Virus record (IMG/VR): IMGVR_UViG_3300021599_000893
Span: 1-23,717 of that record
From: a virus
Strand: one strand, 5' to 3'
DNA length: 23,717 nucleotides
Within the stretch, counting starts at the first letter, position 1. Each line of letters opens with the position of its first letter. Position numbers and translations under genes: made by a program. The notes under the pieces were generated by a model that had not been told where the DNA came from, did no database searches, and was given only the letters and a program-made list of their open reading frames with translations. Positions 14,640 through 22,674 of this stretch are shown here, piece by piece.

Positions 14640-16655
14640 ATGTCAGTAGATTTCATTGATGATGGGCAACCAACAAACCAAAATAAGAAAGGTAAGAGAA
14701 ATTCTAATACACCTATATTAGATAATTTCTCAAGAGATTTGATAAAATTAGCACAAGAAGGTAAAATAGACCCTATTGTTGGTAGAGATAAAGAAGTAAA
14801 AAGAATTGCACAAATTCTTTCAAGAAAGAAGAAAAATAATGTTGTTATTGTGGGTGATGCCGGTGTGGGTAAATCGGCATTGGTTGAAAAATTGGCGCTA
14901 TTGATTAATAAAGGTAACTGTCCTTCAAATCTTTTAGATAAAAGAATAATGTCATTGGATTTGACATCTTTAGTTGCGGGTACCAAGTATAGGGGTCAAT
15001 TTGAAGAAAGGATTAAAGCGATATTAAATGAATTACAAGAAGCACCGAATGTAATTGTTTTTATTGATGAATTACACACAATGGTCGGTGCAGGTAATGC
15101 CAGCGGATCAATGGATGCAGCCAACATATTAAAACCCGCACTTGCTCGTGGTGAAATTCAATGTATTGGTGCAACAACTTTTGATGAATACAAAAAGAAC
15201 ATCGAAAAAGATTCTGCGTTAGTTAGAAGATTCCAAAAAATAATCTTACCGGAACCAACAGAAAAAGAAACTGTTGAAATTTTGGAAAATCTTAAAACAT
15301 CATATGAGAATTTTCATAAAGTAAAATATGAAGATGGTGTTATTGATACTATTGTTAAAGTATCAAAAAGATTTATGACTGACAGACAATTTCCTGATAA
15401 GGCAATTGATATTATGGATGAATTAGGTTCAGAAAAGAAAATATCTAATAAAATACCTGAAAGTGTTGAAAAATTAAAACAAGAAGTTGAGGAAATAAAA
15501 CAAAAAAAATTAGATGTCGTTAAAACACAGAATTATGAATTGGCAGCTAAATTAAGAGATACAGAAAAAACTGTTCTATCAAAATTAGAACAAGAAAAAG
15601 AAAAATGGTTGATAAACCAACAAAATAATAAAACACCAATTAGTATTGAAGATGTTTACCAGATAATTTCAAATATTACTGGTGTACCAATTACAAAATT
15701 GGATTCAAAAGAAACAGAAAAACTTTTGAATTTAGATAAAATTTTAACATCTAAGGTTATTGGACAGAATGAGGCGATATCAATCATATCTAAATGTATC
15801 AGAAGAAATAGAGTTGGTATTAAAGATACAAATAAACCAATCGGATCATTTATATTCTTAGGATCAACTGGTGTCGGTAAAACATATCTTGCAAAATCAT
15901 TGGCTGAAATATTATTTGGTGATCCCGAAAAAATGATTCGTGTGGATATGAGTGAATTTATGGAGAAACACAATGTATCTAAATTAATTGGTTCACCTCC
16001 CGGTTACGTTGGATATGATGAAGGTGGTCAATTAACAGAAAAGGTAAAAAACAATCCATTTTCAGTTATATTGTTTGATGAAATTGAAAAGGCACATAAA
16101 GATGTTTTCAATTTGTTGTTACAAATTTTAGATGAAGGACACTTAACCGATTCTTTTGGTAGAAAAGTTAACTTCACCAATACTTTGATTATTATGACAT
16201 CAAATGTTGGGGCTAAAAAAGTTTCTGAATTTGGTGGGGGAGTTGGTTTTGAAACATCTTCAACAAATAAACAAAAAGAAGAAGTTAAAAAAACAATGAT
16301 ACAAAAATCATTGAAACAACAATTCAATCCTGAATTTTTAAATAGAATTGATGATGTAATCCTTTTCAATTCTTTAGACGAAAATGCACTAAAACAAATT
16401 ATTGGTGTTGAATTAAATAAATTAAAAAATAGATTAACTGAAAAAGGATACAAAGTTAATTTTGACGAATCAGTATCACAAAAGATATATGAATTAAATC
16501 AACAAGAAGAATATGGAGCGAGACCCATAAAAAGAATAATACAAAATCTTTGTGAGGATTTCTTAAGTGAAGAAATTCTAAAAGGTACTATAAAAGAAAA
16601 TGTTTTAGCAAATTTGAAAATTAAAGACGGAGAATTGGTAATTAGAAAAAAATAA
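14640..16655 (+). CDS. ClpC-like AAA+ unfoldase lacking the N-domain
   Basis: This is a 671-residue class I Clp/Hsp100 ATPase. D1: Walker A GDAGVGKSA (residues 72-80), pore loop GTKYRGQFEER (114-124), Walker B VIVFIDELH (138-146), sensor GATTFDEY (177-184). A short middle segment (about 285-325) contains a UVR-like motif (YELAAKLRDTEK), as in ClpC/ClpE and not the long ClpB M-domain. D2: Walker A GSTGVGKT (408-415), GYVGYDEGGQLTE (455-467), Walker B VILFDEIEKA (476-485), and FLNRIDD. Residues 535-537 are VGF in the position of the ClpP-docking loop. The usual N-terminal double Clp_N repeat is absent; only about 25 residues precede the D1 region. No clpP gene lies in the window, so partnership with host ClpP is inferred. 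The start is the first ATG after a TATGTTTG element. Confidence 0.93.
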   Translation: MSVDFIDDGQPTNQNKKGKRNSNTPILDNFSRDLIKLAQEGKIDPIVGRDKEVKRIAQILSRKKKNNVVIVGDAGVGKSALVEKLALLINKGNCPSNLLDKRIMSLDLTSLVAGTKYRGQFEERIKAILNELQEAPNVIVFIDELHTMVGAGNASGSMDAANILKPALARGEIQCIGATTFDEYKKNIEKDSALVRRFQKIILPEPTEKETVEILENLKTSYENFHKVKYEDGVIDTIVKVSKRFMTDRQFPDKAIDIMDELGSEKKISNKIPESVEKLKQEVEEIKQKKLDVVKTQNYELAAKLRDTEKTVLSKLEQEKEKWLINQQNNKTPISIEDVYQIISNITGVPITKLDSKETEKLLNLDKILTSKVIGQNEAISIISKCIRRNRVGIKDTNKPIGSFIFLGSTGVGKTYLAKSLAEILFGDPEKMIRVDMSEFMEKHNVSKLIGSPPGYVGYDEGGQLTEKVKNNPFSVILFDEIEKAHKDVFNLLLQILDEGHLTDSFGRKVNFTNTLIIMTSNVGAKKVSEFGGGVGFETSSTNKQKEEVKKTMIQKSLKQQFNPEFLNRIDDVILFNSLDENALKQIIGVELNKLKNRLTEKGYKVNFDESVSQKIYELNQQEEYGARPIKRIIQNLCEDFLSEEILKGTIKENVLANLKIKDGELVIRKK

Positions 16656-16667
16656 TTTATAAATATC

Positions 16668-16696
16668 TTGACTTTTTGTAAAATTATATATATTTA
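16668..16696 (+). promoter_or_regulatory. Bacteroidetes-type promoter upstream of candidate small RNA
   Basis: TTG (16668-16670), an 18-bp spacer, and TATATTTA (16689-16696), close to TAnnTTTG. It lies just after the clp stop codon and points at the hairpin-terminator region. Confidence 0.4.
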
Positions 16697-16701
16697 TATT
16701 C

Positions 16702-16806
16702 TCGGAGGTTCTCTTTGTCGATTACCTTTTCGTTTTTTTTCATAAGTAAATGGGGTTGAACCCATTGAAAGACCTTAGTCCCGACATATCGTTGGGACTT
16801 TTTTTT
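16702..16806 (+). ncRNA. Candidate small RNA of about 105 nt
   Basis: Between clp and the lipoprotein gene there is a non-coding stretch with a promoter-like element before it, an internal hairpin AATGGG/CCCATT (16749-16766, loop GTTGAA), and a strong intrinsic terminator at its end. No reading frame longer than about 25 codons is seen in it. An earlier T-run (16733-16740) could give a shorter product. It could instead be a clp 3' untranslated region. The function is unknown. Confidence 0.4.
16777..16806 (+). terminator. Intrinsic terminator
   Basis: AGTCCCGAC (16777-16785) pairs with GTTGGGACT (16791-16799), 9 bp with one G-T, loop ATATC, followed by eight T's. Confidence 0.9.
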
Positions 16807-16814
16807 ATTATATT

Positions 16815-16844
16815 TTGTTATTAAATTTATTTTTCGTATATTTA
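16815..16844 (+). promoter_or_regulatory. Bacteroidetes-type promoter for the lipoprotein gene
   Basis: TTG (16815-16817), a 19-bp spacer, and TATATTTA (16837-16844), matching seven of the eight TAnnTTTG positions, end 5 bp before the ATG. Confidence 0.55.
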
Positions 16845-16849
16845 CAGGT

Positions 16850-17029
16850 ATGAAAAAATATATGTTTATTTTTGTTGTTAGTGCAATAGTTGCATTAACA
16901 TCATGTGGGTCTGAGTCAACCACAACAATTGAAAGTATTGACTCTACGTCTGTTTCTGTTGATACTTTAGTACCAACAGGACAAGACACTACAGTAGAAG
17001 TAAAAACTGATAGTGCTGATGTAAAATAA
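16850..17029 (+). CDS. Small lipoprotein
   Basis: This is a 59-residue protein. Residues 1-15 form a classical signal peptide (MKKYMFIFVVSAIVA) followed by a lipobox LTSC with Cys19, so the mature product would be a lipid-anchored peptide of about 41 residues rich in Thr, Ser, Asp and Val, with no other Cys. The residues after Cys19 are GSES, not a strong surface-export signal of the Lys/Asp-Glu type, so periplasmic retention or surface exposure cannot be decided. Small phage lipoproteins often alter the infected cell surface, for example in superinfection exclusion; this role is inferred. The gene is a single unit with its own promoter and terminator. The minus-strand frame across it is a shadow. 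Confidence 0.85.
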   Translation: MKKYMFIFVVSAIVALTSCGSESTTTIESIDSTSVSVDTLVPTGQDTTVEVKTDSADVK

Positions 17030-17034
17030 AATTT

Positions 17035-17062
17035 GGGGGGAATATAAATTCCCCCTAATTTT
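17035..17062 (+). terminator. Terminator after the lipoprotein gene
   Basis: GGGGGAAT (17036-17043) pairs with ATTCCCCC (17048-17055) around ATAA, followed by TAATTTTG. The T-tract is short. Confidence 0.75.
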
Positions 17063-17084: not shown

Positions 17085-17510
17085 ATGGAAGAAAAAAAAT
17101 ATGTCGGAGATTTAATTCTTTTAAGAGGAGTACCAGGTAGTGGTAAATCTACATTAGGTAAAACAATTTTAAGATGTTTAGCTTCAGATGATCCTGACGT
17201 TATTTCTGCGGATGATTTTTTTCTTGACGAAAAGGGTAATTATATTTTTGATTCCACAAAATTAAAAGAGGCACATGCACAATCACAACAAAGATGTGCA
17301 ACAAAAATGAAAAATGAATTTTCAAGAATTGTTGTCGCGAATACCTTTACACAGAAATGGGAAATGGACGCATATTACGAAATGGCGGAAAGATACAATT
17401 ACAGGGTTTTTAGTGTGATTGTTGAAAATAGACACGGAAATTTAAATATTCACGATGTTCCCGAAGAAAAAGTTGAACAAATGAAAAATAGATTTGATGT
17501 TTCTCTTTAA
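17085..17510 (+). CDS. P-loop polynucleotide kinase (predicted RNA 5'-kinase)
   Basis: This 141-residue P-loop kinase resembles the kinase half of T4 polynucleotide kinase and N4BP2-type kinases. Walker A RGVPGSGKST (residues 14-23); SADDFF (41-46) with the likely catalytic Asp43/Asp44; VANTFTQKWEMDAY (84-97), a typical third motif; and a C-terminal lid IHDVPEEKVEQMKNRF (122-137) with the conserved Arg. The predicted reaction is ATP-dependent phosphorylation of a 5'-OH end. It lacks the 3'-phosphatase domain that T4 Pnkp carries. Its TAA overlaps the ATG of the RNA ligase (TAATG), so the two are translationally coupled, which supports an RNA-repair role. DNA ends or small molecules remain possible substrates. 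No clear promoter is seen in the 55 bp upstream. Confidence 0.85.
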   Translation: MEEKKYVGDLILLRGVPGSGKSTLGKTILRCLASDDPDVISADDFFLDEKGNYIFDSTKLKEAHAQSQQRCATKMKNEFSRIVVANTFTQKWEMDAYYEMAERYNYRVFSVIVENRHGNLNIHDVPEEKVEQMKNRFDVSL

Positions 17511-18580
17511 TGTTAGATATATTAGAAAAATATCACAATGATGGTCTGTTATTAAAACAGACACACCCAACATTACCTTTAACAATTTGGAATTACTCAC
17601 CAAAAGTTCAATATGATAACTTATGGGATGATGTTATTATTCAATGTAGAGGATTAGTTACCGATGTTGATGGTAATATTGTTGCTCGACCTTTTCCAAA
17701 ATTTTTTAATTACGAAGAATTAAAACCCGAACAGATACCAAACGAACCATTTGATGTTTTTGAAAAATTAGATGGGTCTTTAGGTATATTATTTAATTAT
17801 GAAGGTCAATGGGTATTTGCAACTCGTGGATCATTTACATCCGATCAAGCAAAAAGAGGATGGGAACTTCTTCAAAAATATGACTACCAAAGATTAATTG
17901 AGGATAAAACATATCTATTTGAAATAATTTATAAAGAAAATCGTATTGTTGTTGATTATGATTATGAAGATCTAATAATGCTCGGTGTAATTGACAATAT
18001 CGATGGTTACGAATATAAAATATTTGACGAAAGAATCCATCTTGAAGGTGTTAGGTTCGTTAATATGTATAGAAATCTTGGATTTAAATTTGTTAAAAAA
18101 TATGATGGTATAAAAGACTATTCAACCCTAAAAGAAATAATCAAAGATAATGAAGAGGGATTCGTTATTAGATTTCAAAATGGGTTTAGAATGAAAATAA
18201 AAGGTGTAGAATATTGTCGTCTCCATAAAATCCTAACAAACATCTCAAATAGAGATATTTGGGAATCTTTAAAAAATGGAGAATCATTAGATAAAATTAT
18301 TGAAAAGGTACCCGATGAATTTTATAATTGGGTAAAAGAAACAAAAAATAAATTTGAGTCAGAATTTGATAAAATAAAAAAAGAATATGAATGGATATTC
18401 AAAGTTATTATGAGATCGGAAAATTCAAATGAAAGAAAAGTATTCGCACAATTTGCAATAAAATACAAATATTCTTCAATTCTATTTTCTATGTATGATA
18501 ATAAACCATATAATCAAACAATATGGAAAATCCTATATCCTGAGTATTCGAAACCTTTTAAAAAAAATGATAATGAGTAA
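17510..18580 (+). CDS. rnlA: RNA ligase, T4 Rnl1-like
   Basis: This 356-residue protein (T4 Rnl1 is 374) is an ATP-dependent RNA ligase of the covalent nucleotidyltransferase superfamily. Motif I is EKLDGSLG (residues 85-92) with Lys86 as the adenylated residue; CRGLVTD (46-52) carries the upstream conserved Arg; motif III is YLFEIIY (135-141); motif IV is EEGFVIRF (215-222); motif V is RMKIKGVEY (227-235) with Lys229 and Lys231. The PLTIWNYSPKVQY segment near the start is typical of this phage ligase group. The enzyme joins 5'-phosphate and 3'-OH RNA ends; in T4 it repairs host tRNA cut by anticodon nucleases. It is coupled upstream to the kinase and downstream to the cREC gene (8-bp overlap, ATGAGTAA). 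The C-terminal 100 residues are helical and likely set tRNA specificity. Confidence 0.92.
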   Translation: MLDILEKYHNDGLLLKQTHPTLPLTIWNYSPKVQYDNLWDDVIIQCRGLVTDVDGNIVARPFPKFFNYEELKPEQIPNEPFDVFEKLDGSLGILFNYEGQWVFATRGSFTSDQAKRGWELLQKYDYQRLIEDKTYLFEIIYKENRIVVDYDYEDLIMLGVIDNIDGYEYKIFDERIHLEGVRFVNMYRNLGFKFVKKYDGIKDYSTLKEIIKDNEEGFVIRFQNGFRMKIKGVEYCRLHKILTNISNRDIWESLKNGESLDKIIEKVPDEFYNWVKETKNKFESEFDKIKKEYEWIFKVIMRSENSNERKVFAQFAIKYKYSSILFSMYDNKPYNQTIWKILYPEYSKPFKKNDNE

Positions 18581-19001
18581 ATTAAAATTGTATTTAGACG
18601 ATGTTCGTGTTCCAAAAGACAATAGTTGGATTCTTGTAAAAGACTATGGTGAATTTGTAAGTACCATATTAAAACATGGTTTAGAAAGTTTTGATACCAT
18701 TTCTTTGGATCACGATTTGGGTGAGACTGCAATGGCTGAATATTTTAACAATGTTTACCCAAACTATGAACTGAACTACGATAACATAAAAGAAAAAACT
18801 GGATTGGATTGTGCGAAATGGTTGGTGAATCATTATTTGGAAAAACCAAAAGAAAATTTTACCTTTCCACTTGTTTATACTCATTCCGCAAACCCGATAG
18901 GTTCCGCAAATATTATGGGTTATATAAACAATTTTTTAAAAAACATGAGACAACCCCAAACATGTATTAGGGTACGTATTGATCACACAATAAACGAATA
19001 A
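18573..19001 (+). CDS. cREC-type protein (predicted cyclic-phosphate processing)
   Basis: This 142-residue protein matches the receiver-like family called cREC, proposed from genome context to process 2',3'-cyclic phosphates in RNA-repair systems. Hallmarks: LKLYLDDVRVP (residues 4-14) with the acidic pair Asp9/Asp10; SLDHDLGE (44-51) with Asp46, His47, Asp48; TGLDCAKWLV (76-85); and YTHSANPIGSANIMGYI (102-118) with His104. The start at 18573 (MSKLKLYLDD) is preferred; an ATG two codons earlier (18567) and a longer frame from 18495 exist, but the latter would lie within the ligase gene. It overlaps the ligase stop by 8 bp and its own TAA overlaps the next ATG (TAATG). The position suggests it supplies the 3'-end healing step missing from the kinase. 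Biochemical activity of the family is, as far as I know, predicted only. Confidence 0.82.
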   Translation: MSKLKLYLDDVRVPKDNSWILVKDYGEFVSTILKHGLESFDTISLDHDLGETAMAEYFNNVYPNYELNYDNIKEKTGLDCAKWLVNHYLEKPKENFTFPLVYTHSANPIGSANIMGYINNFLKNMRQPQTCIRVRIDHTINE

Positions 19002-19465
19002 TGAATATATTTTTTTTAGATAAAGATCCAAAAAAATGTGCAGAATACCATTGTGATAAACATGTTGTTAAAATGATATTGGAAACCGCACAATTATTAT
19101 GTTCCGCACATTGGGTAACAGGTTCACAAGCACAATACAAATTATCTCACAAAAATCACCCATGTTCAATATGGGTCAGGGAATCACTATCAAACTATTT
19201 GTACCTTTGCGAAATTGGATTGGAATTATGTTACGAATACACATATCGTTATGGTAAAAAACATAAATCACAAGAAGTAATTGAATGGTGTGTAATAAAT
19301 AAAGTAAAAATTTCTGACAAAGGTATTACAGAATTACCTAAAGCAATGCCAGATAAATACAAAGTTAGTTGTCCAATACAATCATATAGAAATTATTATA
19401 TTGGTGACAAAATAAATTTTGCATCTTGGAAAAATAGAGAGACACCTTTTTGGTTTTCCAATTAA
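19001..19465 (+). CDS. Conserved phage protein of unknown function, in RNA-repair operon
   Basis: This is a 154-residue protein. The N-terminal MNIFFLDKDPKKCAEYHCDK and following HVVKMILETAQLLCSAHW are a pattern I recognise from many uncharacterised phage proteins; I cannot attach a verified function. Conserved-looking polar residues are Asp7, His17, Asp19, His21, Lys24 and Glu28, followed by His38, which could form a metal or nucleic-acid site. The second half has KNHPCSIWVRES and a C-terminal FASWKNRETPFWF. It is translationally coupled to the cREC gene (TAATG) and is the last gene of the kinase-ligase-cREC unit; a new promoter follows at once. By association it may act in nucleic-acid repair, but that is inference. 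It is sometimes loosely annotated as a DNA glycosylase; the classical T4 DenV pattern is not present. Confidence 0.78.
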   Translation: MNIFFLDKDPKKCAEYHCDKHVVKMILETAQLLCSAHWVTGSQAQYKLSHKNHPCSIWVRESLSNYLYLCEIGLELCYEYTYRYGKKHKSQEVIEWCVINKVKISDKGITELPKAMPDKYKVSCPIQSYRNYYIGDKINFASWKNRETPFWFSN

Positions 19466-19480
19466 TTTTAAATATCTTTG
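19450..19480 (+). promoter_or_regulatory. Bacteroidetes-type promoter
   Basis: TTG (19450-19452), a 20-bp spacer, and TATCTTTG (19473-19480), an exact TAnnTTTG -7 box. It overlaps the end of the upstream gene and lies 12 bp before the ATG at 19493. Confidence 0.75.
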
Positions 19481-19492
19481 AAAAAAAATTTA

Positions 19493-19813
19493 ATGAAAAC
19501 ATACAGCAATGACATCGTGGTTGATTTGACTAAAAATTATCAAGATTTTCGCCATTTCTATGATGAAAATAAAAGTATAATTTATAAATCAATTATTGAG
19601 ATTTTCGAAAAATTTAAAACAACCAAGAAAAAAAATCTAAAACTTCTTGTTAAAGCAACAATCATGGATTTGGAATTTGAAACCGAATTCTGTTATCGTA
19701 AAAATGAGAATTTTGTATTAATGAGGGATCTAATGCCGTATTTTGAACAAATAGAAGATTTCGAGACTTGCACGAGAATAAGAGATTTAAGTAAAGAATT
19801 AAACACCATATAA
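19493..19813 (+). CDS. Small protein with C-terminal UVR-like motif
   Basis: This is a 106-residue protein starting at the ATG at 19493 (MKTYSNDIVVDLTKNY). A TTG 15 bp upstream could extend the frame, but it forms part of the -7 box and is unlikely to be transcribed. The C-terminal 23 residues (YFEQIEDFETCTRIRDLSKEL) resemble a UVR motif, the helical hairpin that mediates UvrB-UvrC contact and occurs in ClpC/McsA-type proteins. The rest is charged and helical with a Lys-rich centre (TTKKKNLKLLVKATI). The stop overlaps the ATG of the SLOG gene (TAATG), so the two are coupled. The role is unknown; the UVR motif suggests a protein-protein contact, possibly with the phage ClpC-like protein. Confidence 0.8.
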   Translation: MKTYSNDIVVDLTKNYQDFRHFYDENKSIIYKSIIEIFEKFKTTKKKNLKLLVKATIMDLEFETEFCYRKNENFVLMRDLMPYFEQIEDFETCTRIRDLSKELNTI

Positions 19814-20163
19814 TGAAAATAATCGTTGCGGGTGGTCGTGATTTTAGTGATTACGAACTACTAAAAGAAAAATTAGACGAATTGATTGGTGAAAATAAAG
19901 AGGATCTCGAAATAGTTTCAGGAATGGCTAGAGGGGCTGATACTTTAGGGGTACAATACGCGAATGAGAGAGGTTACAAAATTAAGAAGTTTCCAGCACA
20001 ATGGGATAAGTACGGAAAGAGTGCGGGTTATAAAAGAAATGAAGAAATGGCGAATTATGGTAATACTTGTATTTGTTTTTGGGATGGTAATAGTAAGGGC
20101 ACGAAACATATGATCGATCTATCAAATAAATATAAATTAAACACTATTGTTATTAGATATTGA
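19813..20163 (+). CDS. SLOG-fold protein, YspA/DUF2493-like
   Basis: This 116-residue Rossmann-like protein fits the DUF2493/YspA branch of the SLOG superfamily over its whole length. Signature segments: IIVAGGRDFSDYELL (residues 3-17), VSGMARGADTLGVQYANERG (35-54 region), FPAQWDKYGKSAGYKRNEEM and CFWDGNSKGTKHMI near residue 95. SLOG proteins bind nucleotide-derived ligands; some generate or sense such molecules in conflict systems, others act as lysine decarboxylase-like phosphoribohydrolases. The ligand of the phage versions is not known to me. It is coupled to the UVR-motif gene and followed by a strong terminator, so this pair is a separate two-gene unit downstream of the RNA-repair genes. 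Confidence 0.9.
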   Translation: MKIIVAGGRDFSDYELLKEKLDELIGENKEDLEIVSGMARGADTLGVQYANERGYKIKKFPAQWDKYGKSAGYKRNEEMANYGNTCICFWDGNSKGTKHMIDLSNKYKLNTIVIRY

Positions 20164-20190: not shown

Positions 20191-20226
20191 AAATGTCAAC
20201 TAAAAAAAAGTTGACATTTTTTTTTT
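20191..20226 (+). terminator. Intrinsic terminator after SLOG gene
   Basis: AAATGTCAAC (20191-20200) pairs with GTTGACATTT (20210-20219), loop TAAAAAAAA, followed by a long T-run. Confidence 0.92.
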
Positions 20227-21751: not shown

Positions 21752-21840
21752 GCCCCGGTGGTGGAACAGGTAGACACGCAGGACTTAAAATCCTGTGGAC
21801 CGAAACGTCCGTGCGGGTTCGATTCCCGCCTGGGGCACCA
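21752..21840 (+). tRNA. tRNA-Leu (anticodon UAA)
   Basis: The 89-nt class II tRNA has a 7-bp acceptor stem GCCCCGG (21752-21758) with CTGGGGC (21830-21836), discriminator A and an encoded CCA (21838-21840). The anticodon loop CTTAAAA gives UAA. A variable arm GGACC...GTCC and a T-arm GCGGG TTCGATT CCCGC are present. UUA is a dominant Leu codon in the surrounding genes. Confidence 0.97.
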
Positions 21841-22399: not shown

Positions 22400-22470
22400 G
22401 GTCTCATAGTTTAAGGGAAAAACGGTAGCCTTCTAAGCTTCTGATCCTAGTTCGAGTCTAGGTGAGACTA
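22400..22470 (+). tRNA. tRNA-Arg (anticodon UCU)
   Basis: A 71-nt cloverleaf: acceptor GGTCTCA (22400-22406) with TGAGACT (22463-22469, G-U at the first pair), D-arm GTTT/AAAC with a GG in the loop, anticodon loop CTTCTAA giving UCU (22432-22434), and T-arm CCTAG TTCGAGT CTAGG. The anticodon stem has one T-T mismatch. CCA is not encoded, unlike tRNA-Leu. AGA is the main Arg codon of the surrounding genes. Confidence 0.93.
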
Positions 22471-22674
22471 CAAAGTTCCTGTAGGCCGCGGGATCGTAGT
22501 TCCTCTATTCCACTGACAAAAGTCAAGAAAAGAGCCAGATCGTAAGCTGGATGGGTTGACAACTTTCCCACTGACTCGGAAAAAAGTTGTAAATTTTAAG
22601 CGGGTCCTCGCTTCCCACGGTTTAATAGTACAAGGATAATGAAGGGAATAATACGACCCCTAAGACCTGCTTTT
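22471..22674 (+). ncRNA. Candidate structured RNA, segment B (after tRNA-Arg)
   Basis: About 200 nt without a plausible coding frame, GC-richer than the genome. Helices seen by eye: TGAC AAAA GTCA (22514-22525), CCAG/CTGG (22535-22550), ACAACTTT (22559-22566) with AAAGTTGT (22583-22590), and a 9-bp closing helix AAGCGGGTC (22598-22606) with GACCTGCTT (22664-22672, one G-U), followed by TTTTATT. GATCGTA (22492, 22538) and CCACTGAC (22510, 22568) each occur twice in the same order, suggesting a duplicated unit. I cannot match it to RNase P, tmRNA, SRP RNA or a group I intron. Confidence 0.42.

Follow-up and report, generated by a model that had tools for sequence, protein, structure and literature searches.

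Does a short run of overlapping phage genes encode a pathway for the repair of broken RNA? This question is raised by positions 17085 to 19465 of the viral record IMGVR_UViG_3300021599_000893 (IMG/VR), whose 23,717 bases constitute the whole stretch analysed here (the window). A preliminary description had proposed that four genes of this region form an operon for 5' healing, 3' healing and sealing of RNA, and had named a kinase, a ligase of the T4 RNA ligase 1 (Rnl1) type, a cREC (cyclic-phosphate processing Receiver) protein and an unassigned fourth protein. Healing and sealing is still the best reading of the locus, but neither the participation of the fourth protein nor a 3' step performed by cREC only could be upheld. 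Judged from the sequences, the unit is probably, though far from certainly, a phage cassette for the healing and sealing of RNA ends. It would most likely serve transfer RNAs (tRNAs) that are cut in the anticodon loop by host defence nucleases.

The open reading frames (ORFs) called on the window comprise four on the plus strand at 17085-17510, 17510-18580, 18573-19001 and 19001-19465. They are joined by a TAATG at 17508-17512, an overlap of 8 base pairs (bp) at 18573-18580 and a second TAATG at 18999-19003; the ORF calls and the junction letters thus agree with the genes, coordinates and stop-start overlaps described. The Pfam families expected for the first three proteins were all found with significant E-values (AAA_33, 9.8e-14; RNA_lig_T4_1, 1.9e-20; cREC_REC, 8.2e-20), and in PHROGs the four proteins match phrog_2071, phrog_562, phrog_1479 and phrog_624, respectively. 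The proposed end of the operon at 19465, however, did not hold. One further ORF (19478-19813) begins 12 bp after the fourth gene, and the next (19813-20163) overlaps it by a TAATG. As these two genes follow so closely and terminator-like hairpins flank the whole, the unit probably consists of six genes and continues to 20163, the last gene encoding a YAcAr-family SLOG protein; we infer that the genes share a transcript. Upstream of the unit stands a hairpin at 17033-17058 (plus strand; 11-pair stem, then a T-rich tail), and 3' of the YAcAr gene there is one at 20191-20219 (plus strand; 11-pair stem and a T run); both are consensus matches only. Between 16500 and 20400, 8 rows of such consensus matches were obtained, compared with 1.1 +/- 1.0 in shuffles, four of the eight being versions of the single hairpin at 17033-17058.

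The first gene (17085-17510, plus strand) encodes a polynucleotide 5'-kinase-like P-loop protein of 141 amino acids. It comprises the kinase domain only, as had been claimed, and matches no phosphatase family. Its PHROGs matches are phrog_2071 ("ATPase", 1.3e-36) and phrog_505 ("polynucleotide kinase", 1.4e-7). The P-loop, D43 and R116 are near-invariant across the aligned relatives, and we take the latter two to be the catalytic aspartate and the lid arginine. The residues expected of an AAA_33-type 5'-polynucleotide kinase are therefore present, AAA_33 not being specific to polynucleotide kinases. Because that family is broad and the protein also matches L-seryl-tRNA(Sec) kinases, its assignment to a polynucleotide substrate rests on the genomic context and on the phrog_505 match.

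The second gene (17510-18580, plus strand) encodes a T4 Rnl1-type RNA ligase of 356 amino acids. The protein scores 74.1 bits against PF09511 (cut-off 28.3), matches phrog_562 at 4.8e-71 and aligns to the T4 RNA ligase 1 structures 9do4, 2c5u and 5tt6 with E-values of 2.7e-11 to 1.2e-10. In these alignments the stretches KxDGS, EGxV and KIK are matched, which are presumably the ligase motifs of these names. By Pfam the protein belongs to the T4 Rnl1 family, but it scores below the NCBIfam cut-off for equivalogs of T4 RnlA. A connection between the first two genes is also apparent in phrog_8238, a profile of 737 positions labelled "RNA ligase", to which the kinase matches at 4-109 (E 2e-6) and the ligase at 428-729 (E 1e-23). 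For the middle of this profile matches are weak: one of the two phrog_547 phosphoesterases tried gave E 0.008, and one phrog_1649 protein E 0.009. Taken together, these matches hint at fused kinase-phosphoesterase-ligase forms. As an observation in its own right, the Rnl1-type ligase gene is split into two ORFs at four other loci (L122, at 14925-16873, L184, L201 and L191). At L122 a homing endonuclease gene (phrog_314) occupies the gap; a known intron as the cause of the splits found no support, as there was no Rfam intron at any of the four.

The third gene (18573-19001, plus strand) encodes a protein of 142 amino acids that scores 71.7 bits against cREC_REC (PF20274; cut-off 27). A longer in-frame start exists at ATG 18495; conservation begins near ATG 18573. 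An AlphaFold2 model computed from 35 aligned relatives has a mean confidence (pLDDT) of 95.9. When this model was compared by VIA-align with the structures listed by Foldseek, the top match (3m6m) reached Z 9.3 with a root-mean-square deviation (rmsd) of 2.9 over 96 aligned residues, and nearly all of the 50 rows listed were receiver or response-regulator entries. Plain Foldseek gave no match at E 0.001 or better, and the alignment searched against the sequences of solved structures gave matches at chance level only. The invariant residues of the 35-row alignment are L8, D9, D10, R12, P14, D46, H47, D48, E74, T76, G77, D79, H104, S105, N107, G110 and N113, which form the patterns LDD.R.P, DHD, E.TG.D and HS.N..G..N; the predicted receiver-like fold is thus accompanied by four conserved aspartates (D9, D10, D46, D48). 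Profile match and predicted fold together bear out the identification as cREC. The processing of cyclic phosphates by this family is a prediction (PMC7824862, PMC9503650, accessible portions); in its accessible portion, PMC9503650 treats the family as experimentally uncharacterised, with an activity that is predicted only, and places cREC among ADP-ribose (ADPr)-processing domains.

How common is this arrangement? Loci from viral contigs that share DNA were combined into groups, a group being counted as linked if any of its members is linked. The 208 sources, among them the window and three loci of named phages, yielded 95 groups, which are still related to each other. As the scans were built on peptide patterns of the window's own proteins, they are biased towards relatives of this phage; for Pyr_excise, the family of the fourth protein, the best 80 of 317 were used. 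Anchored counts were restricted to groups with at least 3 kilobases (kb) on both sides of the anchor, and linkage means a distance of at most 3 kb. The recurrence predicted for the gene order was found for its first pair: of 31 groups anchored on the ligase, 21 have a linked kinase, 4 a linked cREC and 1 a linked Pyr_excise gene, and 9 have none of the three. Linkage of all four genes is rare, the exact order occurring in only two of the 95 group representatives (that of the window and L200), and L009, L149 and L184 have kinase, ligase and cREC without Pyr_excise. Among 18 cREC-anchored groups, the kinase is linked in 5, the ligase in 3 and Pyr_excise in 2. For the 26 groups anchored on Pyr_excise, the counts are 12 for cREC (always upstream and on the same strand, at 100 bp or less in 6), 7 for the ligase, 3 for the kinase and 13 for none. 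Counting protein clusters at 70% instead, and assuming a chance level of 5%, we found strong linkage of ligase and kinase (9/14), weak to moderate linkage of ligase and cREC (3/14) and weak linkage of Pyr_excise and cREC (2/4). The corresponding counts are 8/14 for ligase and phosphoesterase and 7/7 for kinase and phosphoesterase, all pairs being on the same strand.

This phosphoesterase, a calcineurin-like enzyme (PF00149 / phrog_547), was the commonest family (49 groups) when the neighbours within 4 kb were clustered. At distances of up to 3 kb, it accompanies the ligase in 27 of 42 groups, the kinase in 26 of 35, cREC in 14 of 37 and Pyr_excise in 8 of 30; the two genes of every counted pair share a strand. 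Vibrio phage Gary has ligase, kinase and phosphoesterase together, Pseudomonas phage EM has the same core, and in Escherichia phage Murica this core has cREC, a sirtuin and 7 tRNAs nearby; in a Streptomyces phage, a distant cREC, a ligase and a polynucleotide kinase lie within the tRNA array. The window's own phage encodes the enzyme as well. The aligned pieces of the record are 99.7-100% identical to part of a viral contig of 286,785 bp (G001), whose versions of all four proteins are 100% identical to those of the window and in which the six-gene unit lies at 77.1-80.2 kb. There, the minus strand carries a phrog_547 phosphoesterase gene at 193474-194130, some 114 kb from the unit, and another phosphoesterase, of phrog_1649, is encoded after the tRNA array, at 90092. 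With a calcineurin-like enzyme available from another part of the genome, 3' healing does not have to depend on cREC alone. The identity of cREC stands, but the 3' step ascribed to it need not be its own, the phosphoesterase being the most frequent partner of kinase and ligase. A hidden 3' phosphatase of another kind found no support: PF13563 (2H), PF08645 (PNK3P) and PF25109 (HAD_PNKP) have no match in G001, other 2H and HAD families not having been searched. Across 20 contigs the first two likewise gave no match, and PF25109 gave two, one of them above the cut-off.

The contig also reveals what lies downstream. Two tRNA genes, tRNA-Leu(taa) at 21752-21840 and tRNA-Arg(tct) at 22400-22471 (both on the plus strand; ARAGORN and Rfam), had been noted 2-5 kb downstream of the unit. 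Both are in the window, but this statement understates the proximity: they open an array of 23 tRNAs in the contig (ARAGORN, with the same count by Rfam), at about 81.7-89.0 kb. The remaining 21 were located by ARAGORN past the end of the window, at 85.5-89.0 kb of G001 (L216:2569-5990). In window-equivalent coordinates all 23 lie at 21.7-29.0 kb, that is 2.3-9.5 kb downstream of the fourth gene. According to ARAGORN the set spans 19 amino acids; alanine is absent. More generally, the anchor genes of 11 contigs are nearer to listed tRNAs than random points are (Fisher p 0.007), a test that uses 150 listed of 233 tRNA matches and excludes G016, whose single tRNA is unlisted.

Given these genes, repair might proceed as follows. 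The kinase would phosphorylate the 5'-OH end of a broken RNA; cREC, the distant calcineurin-like phosphoesterase or both would open the 2',3'-cyclic phosphate and take off the 3' phosphate; and the Rnl1-type ligase would seal the break using ATP. The tRNAs of the host and those of the adjoining phage array of 23 genes would be the likely substrates. Of this scheme, the sequences supply the gene identities and order, the recurrence, the tRNA array and the predicted folds of the third and fourth proteins; the reactions, their substrate and the biological role are inferred.

The fourth gene (19001-19465, plus strand) has a less certain place in this scheme. Its product of 154 amino acids had been left unassigned, which can be ruled out: it matches Pyr_excise (PF03013; 1.7e-6, 28.7 bits at a cut-off of 23) and phrog_624 (1.6e-57), and its AlphaFold2 model (29 relatives, pLDDT 92.7) superimposes on T4 endonuclease V (DenV; 1enk and 2end) with Z 9.0 and rmsd values of 3.5 and 3.7 for 117 aligned residues (VIA-align). 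For helical proteins a Z below about 13 may reflect merely a common arrangement; we accept the endonuclease V fold nevertheless, because the match is clear of the rest (the next unrelated row has Z 4.2), extends over the greater part of the protein and is consistent with Pfam. Plain Foldseek gave no match at E 0.001 or better, the Pyr_excise alignment matched sequences of solved structures at chance level only, and hhalign detected no profile similarity between this family and T4 DenV (probability 1.3%). Among four relatives from named phages, one exceeds the Pyr_excise cut-off, two are below it and one is unmatched. In T4 endonuclease V, Thr2 presumably provides the catalytic amine and Glu23 is presumably catalytic as well. 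Here, residue 2 is asparagine in all 29 rows of the alignment and in 56 of 57 rows of another. A retained Met1 amine could stand in for Thr2, since the structural alignment starts at model residue 1 and chain residue 2; near the equivalent of Glu23, K24 and E28 are invariant in the 29 rows, the residue alignment to T4 DenV being unreliable.

Nor is it clear that this protein is a new member of RNA repair, as had been suggested. Matches occur in 621 of 50,697 phage records, mostly of cyanophages, vibriophages and Acinetobacter phages, and in three of the eight named phages examined the gene stands amid DNA-replication genes: between gp45 and gp44 (sliding clamp and clamp loader) in cyanophages P-HM1 and S-TIM4, and flanked by two DNA polymerase parts in Acj61. 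The copy of Vibrio phage pv27 follows a tRNA nucleotidyltransferase at a distance of a few genes, and the surroundings in Cr30, MA9V-1, Deifobo and Aeromonas phage 1233 are mixed or lack annotation. Within the stretches shown, an annotated RNA ligase stands beside the gene in none of the eight. Given the clamp and clamp-loader placement in the two cyanophages, an RNA-repair role of this gene is unproven; its product would be an endonuclease V-fold nucleic-acid enzyme encoded on the shared transcript and probably acting on DNA or another substrate. A narrow literature search found no earlier link between Pyr_excise and RNA repair, to which the figures of gene neighbourhoods in PMC7824862 and PMC9503650 may have more to add. 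Two observations concern the family itself. Chryseobacterium phage MA9V-1 encodes a second, longer and divergent member (L003:3370-4485, 371 amino acids) near the normal copy. In S-TIM4, the protein annotated as denV (L231:5436-5951) is by eye unlike T4 DenV, a possible misannotation; a Pyr_excise match (2.5e-15) was obtained for the adjacent gene product, which carries the label "DNA binding protein".

As a possible new component of the cassette, the probable fifth gene (19478-19813, plus strand; start TTG 19478 or ATG 19493) is perhaps more convincing than the fourth. It encodes a small protein without Pfam match, which has homologues in 11 of the 95 groups; the ligase is at most 3 kb away in 7 groups, and cREC in 6. 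The probable sixth gene (19813-20163, plus strand), which encodes the YAcAr-family SLOG protein (PF10686, 1.1e-17), has homologues in 2 of the 95 groups.

Several findings weigh against RNA repair as the function of the unit. For the kinase, the best NCBIfam match is L-seryl-tRNA(Sec) kinase, with 23.4 bits at a curated cut-off of 290.5; the same enzyme is the best match among sequences of solved structures (E 5.7e-4), where bacterial Pnkp1 appears only at E 0.019. The ligase remains below the NCBIfam equivalog cut-off for RnlA (TIGR02308; 70.5 versus 242.25 bits), and Rnl1-type proteins can serve a different purpose, as the label of phrog_562, "RNA ligase and tail fiber protein attachment catalyst", indicates. 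Only 4 of the 31 groups anchored on the ligase have cREC at 3 kb or less from it, and in 13 of the 18 anchored on cREC all of the other three genes are missing from that range. The phosphoesterase is distant from the operon in the very phage under study. Finally, the distance between the anchor gene and the closest of the listed tRNAs is 34-117 kb in 4 of 11 contigs (G013, G015, G018 and G020) and 16 kb in G019.

The rival explanations for cREC, the phosphoesterase and the fourth protein each concern a single gene, are compatible with each other and are also compatible with RNA repair. In bacterial Pnkp, the 3'-healing step is performed by a metallophosphoesterase. The phage phosphoesterase (phrog_547) might likewise be what actually heals the 3' end, with cREC in a regulatory or sensory role and not catalytic on RNA, which we regard as quite possible, if short of an even chance. 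In favour of this, the phosphoesterase is the commonest neighbour of ligase (27/42) and kinase (26/35) and is encoded in the window's contig. In this operon, however, it is cREC and not the phosphoesterase that adjoins the ligase; the invariant aspartate and histidine set of cREC looks catalytic; and the two genes are within 3 kb of each other in 6 of 13 cREC protein clusters, an arrangement that points to separate steps more than to one enzyme replacing the other. For cREC the main competing explanation, in our opinion rather unlikely, is that it degrades ADP-ribose-type signals of host immunity (1''-2'' cyclic phosphate, cyclic ADP-ribose) together with the YAcAr SLOG protein, so that its adjacency to the ligase would be secondary. 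The YAcAr gene closes the same unit, most cREC-anchored groups (13/18) lack ligase, kinase and Pyr_excise nearby, and the grouping of cREC with ADPr-processing domains in the accessible portion of PMC9503650 fits as well. On the other hand, YAcAr recurs so rarely (2/95), the kinase is, like the phosphoesterase, near cREC in 6 of 13 clusters, and neither KptA (PF01885) nor Macro (PF01661) nor sirtuin (PF02146) was found in any of 20 contigs, many of which are fragments (Nudix and NADAR were not searched).

With regard to the fourth protein, it is improbable that it acts as an RNA-repair partner of cREC, for example by trimming or deglycosylating a damaged RNA end. cREC is upstream of it on the same strand in 12 of 26 groups, at 100 bp or less in 6, and its proximity to the tRNA nucleotidyltransferase in pv27 would fit, as would L022, which has the order cREC(-31)PYR(-8)phosphoesterase-kinase-ligase with 14 tRNAs upstream (the phosphoesterase of this locus, L022:10973-11635, belongs to phrog_547). 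Yet half of the Pyr_excise-anchored groups (13/26) have none of the other three genes within 3 kb, cREC is near in just two of four protein clusters, and both the fold of a DNA-repair enzyme and the placement in P-HM1, S-TIM4 and Acj61 point elsewhere. An even bolder idea, to which we attach slightly less credence still, is that an endonuclease V-fold enzyme was recruited from the DNA-replication block to RNA repair in this lineage of large environmental phages: cREC and Pyr_excise would work as partners on damaged tRNA ends, the catalyst being the amine of the invariant Met-Asn-Ile start, and the six-gene unit would guard a nearly complete tRNA array while reading or clearing an NAD-type alarm signal. 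Least probable of all, and very unlikely, is that the Rnl1-type protein is a tail-fibre attachment factor among unrelated auxiliary genes. T4 gp63 has both RNA ligase and tail-fibre attachment activities, and the phrog_562 label names tail-fibre attachment too; the conserved ligase stretches and the recurrent linkage with kinase and phosphoesterase speak against it.

Healing and sealing of RNA, the reading that we prefer, has precedents. Clusters of ligase, kinase and cREC, sometimes with a calcineurin-like enzyme, are already published for V5-type and jumbo phages (PMC7824862, PMC9503650, accessible portions); the V5-type neighbourhood comprises a sirtuin, a T4-like tRNA ligase, cREC, a nucleotide kinase, MazG and occasionally a calcineurin-like phosphoesterase (PMC9503650, accessible portion). 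As in V5-type phages, for which the likeness was checked in Murica, the window's phage combines a clustered T4-like ligase, cREC and stand-alone kinase with a phosphoesterase in the same genome and tRNAs nearby. In contrast to them, its unit is co-directional, adds Pyr_excise, the small protein and the YAcAr SLOG protein, has no adjacent phosphoesterase and is without a sirtuin match (PF02146 matched none of the 20 contigs, G001 included). With T4 Pnkp and Rnl1 the window shares the 5'-kinase-type protein and the Rnl1-type ligase, but its kinase of 141 amino acids has no fused HAD phosphatase, and neither PF25109 nor PF08645 matches the contig. The bacterial Pnkp type, which we take to consist of kinase, metallophosphoesterase and ligase, has the same three parts, apparently joined in the phage profile phrog_8238 (with a weak middle part); the window differs in its separate genes, the added cREC and the Rnl1-type ligase. 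The fourth protein resembles T4 endonuclease V in its Pfam match (PF03013) and fold, but differs in the lack of profile similarity and in having Asn instead of Thr at residue 2. New here are thus the six-gene version without a sirtuin match, the adjoining tRNA array, the strong association with the phosphoesterase among these environmental phages and the recurrent cREC-Pyr_excise pair.

Upstream of the unit, the window encodes a ClpB/ClpA-like AAA+ ATPase (14640-16655; phrog_4871, "ATP-dependent protease"), whose cluster occurs in 8 neighbour groups. A Bacteroidota host is possible. The top named relative of cREC is from Flavobacterium phage immuto (58%), and the immuto terminase is among the best listed (28%), beside that of a Microcystis phage and one other; the best listed relatives of the fourth protein are from Aeromonas phages, and a Chryseobacterium phage ranks sixth.

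The significance of this operon is that, within one genome, a small, tightly coupled set of genes allows the prediction made for cREC to be weighed against the phosphoesterase as an obvious competitor. Phages with cREC, with the phosphoesterase, with both or with neither beside kinase and ligase offer a natural comparison. Should cREC prove to heal RNA ends, RNA repair would include an enzyme with the receiver fold; should the fourth protein be involved, a fold of DNA repair would have been carried over to RNA.

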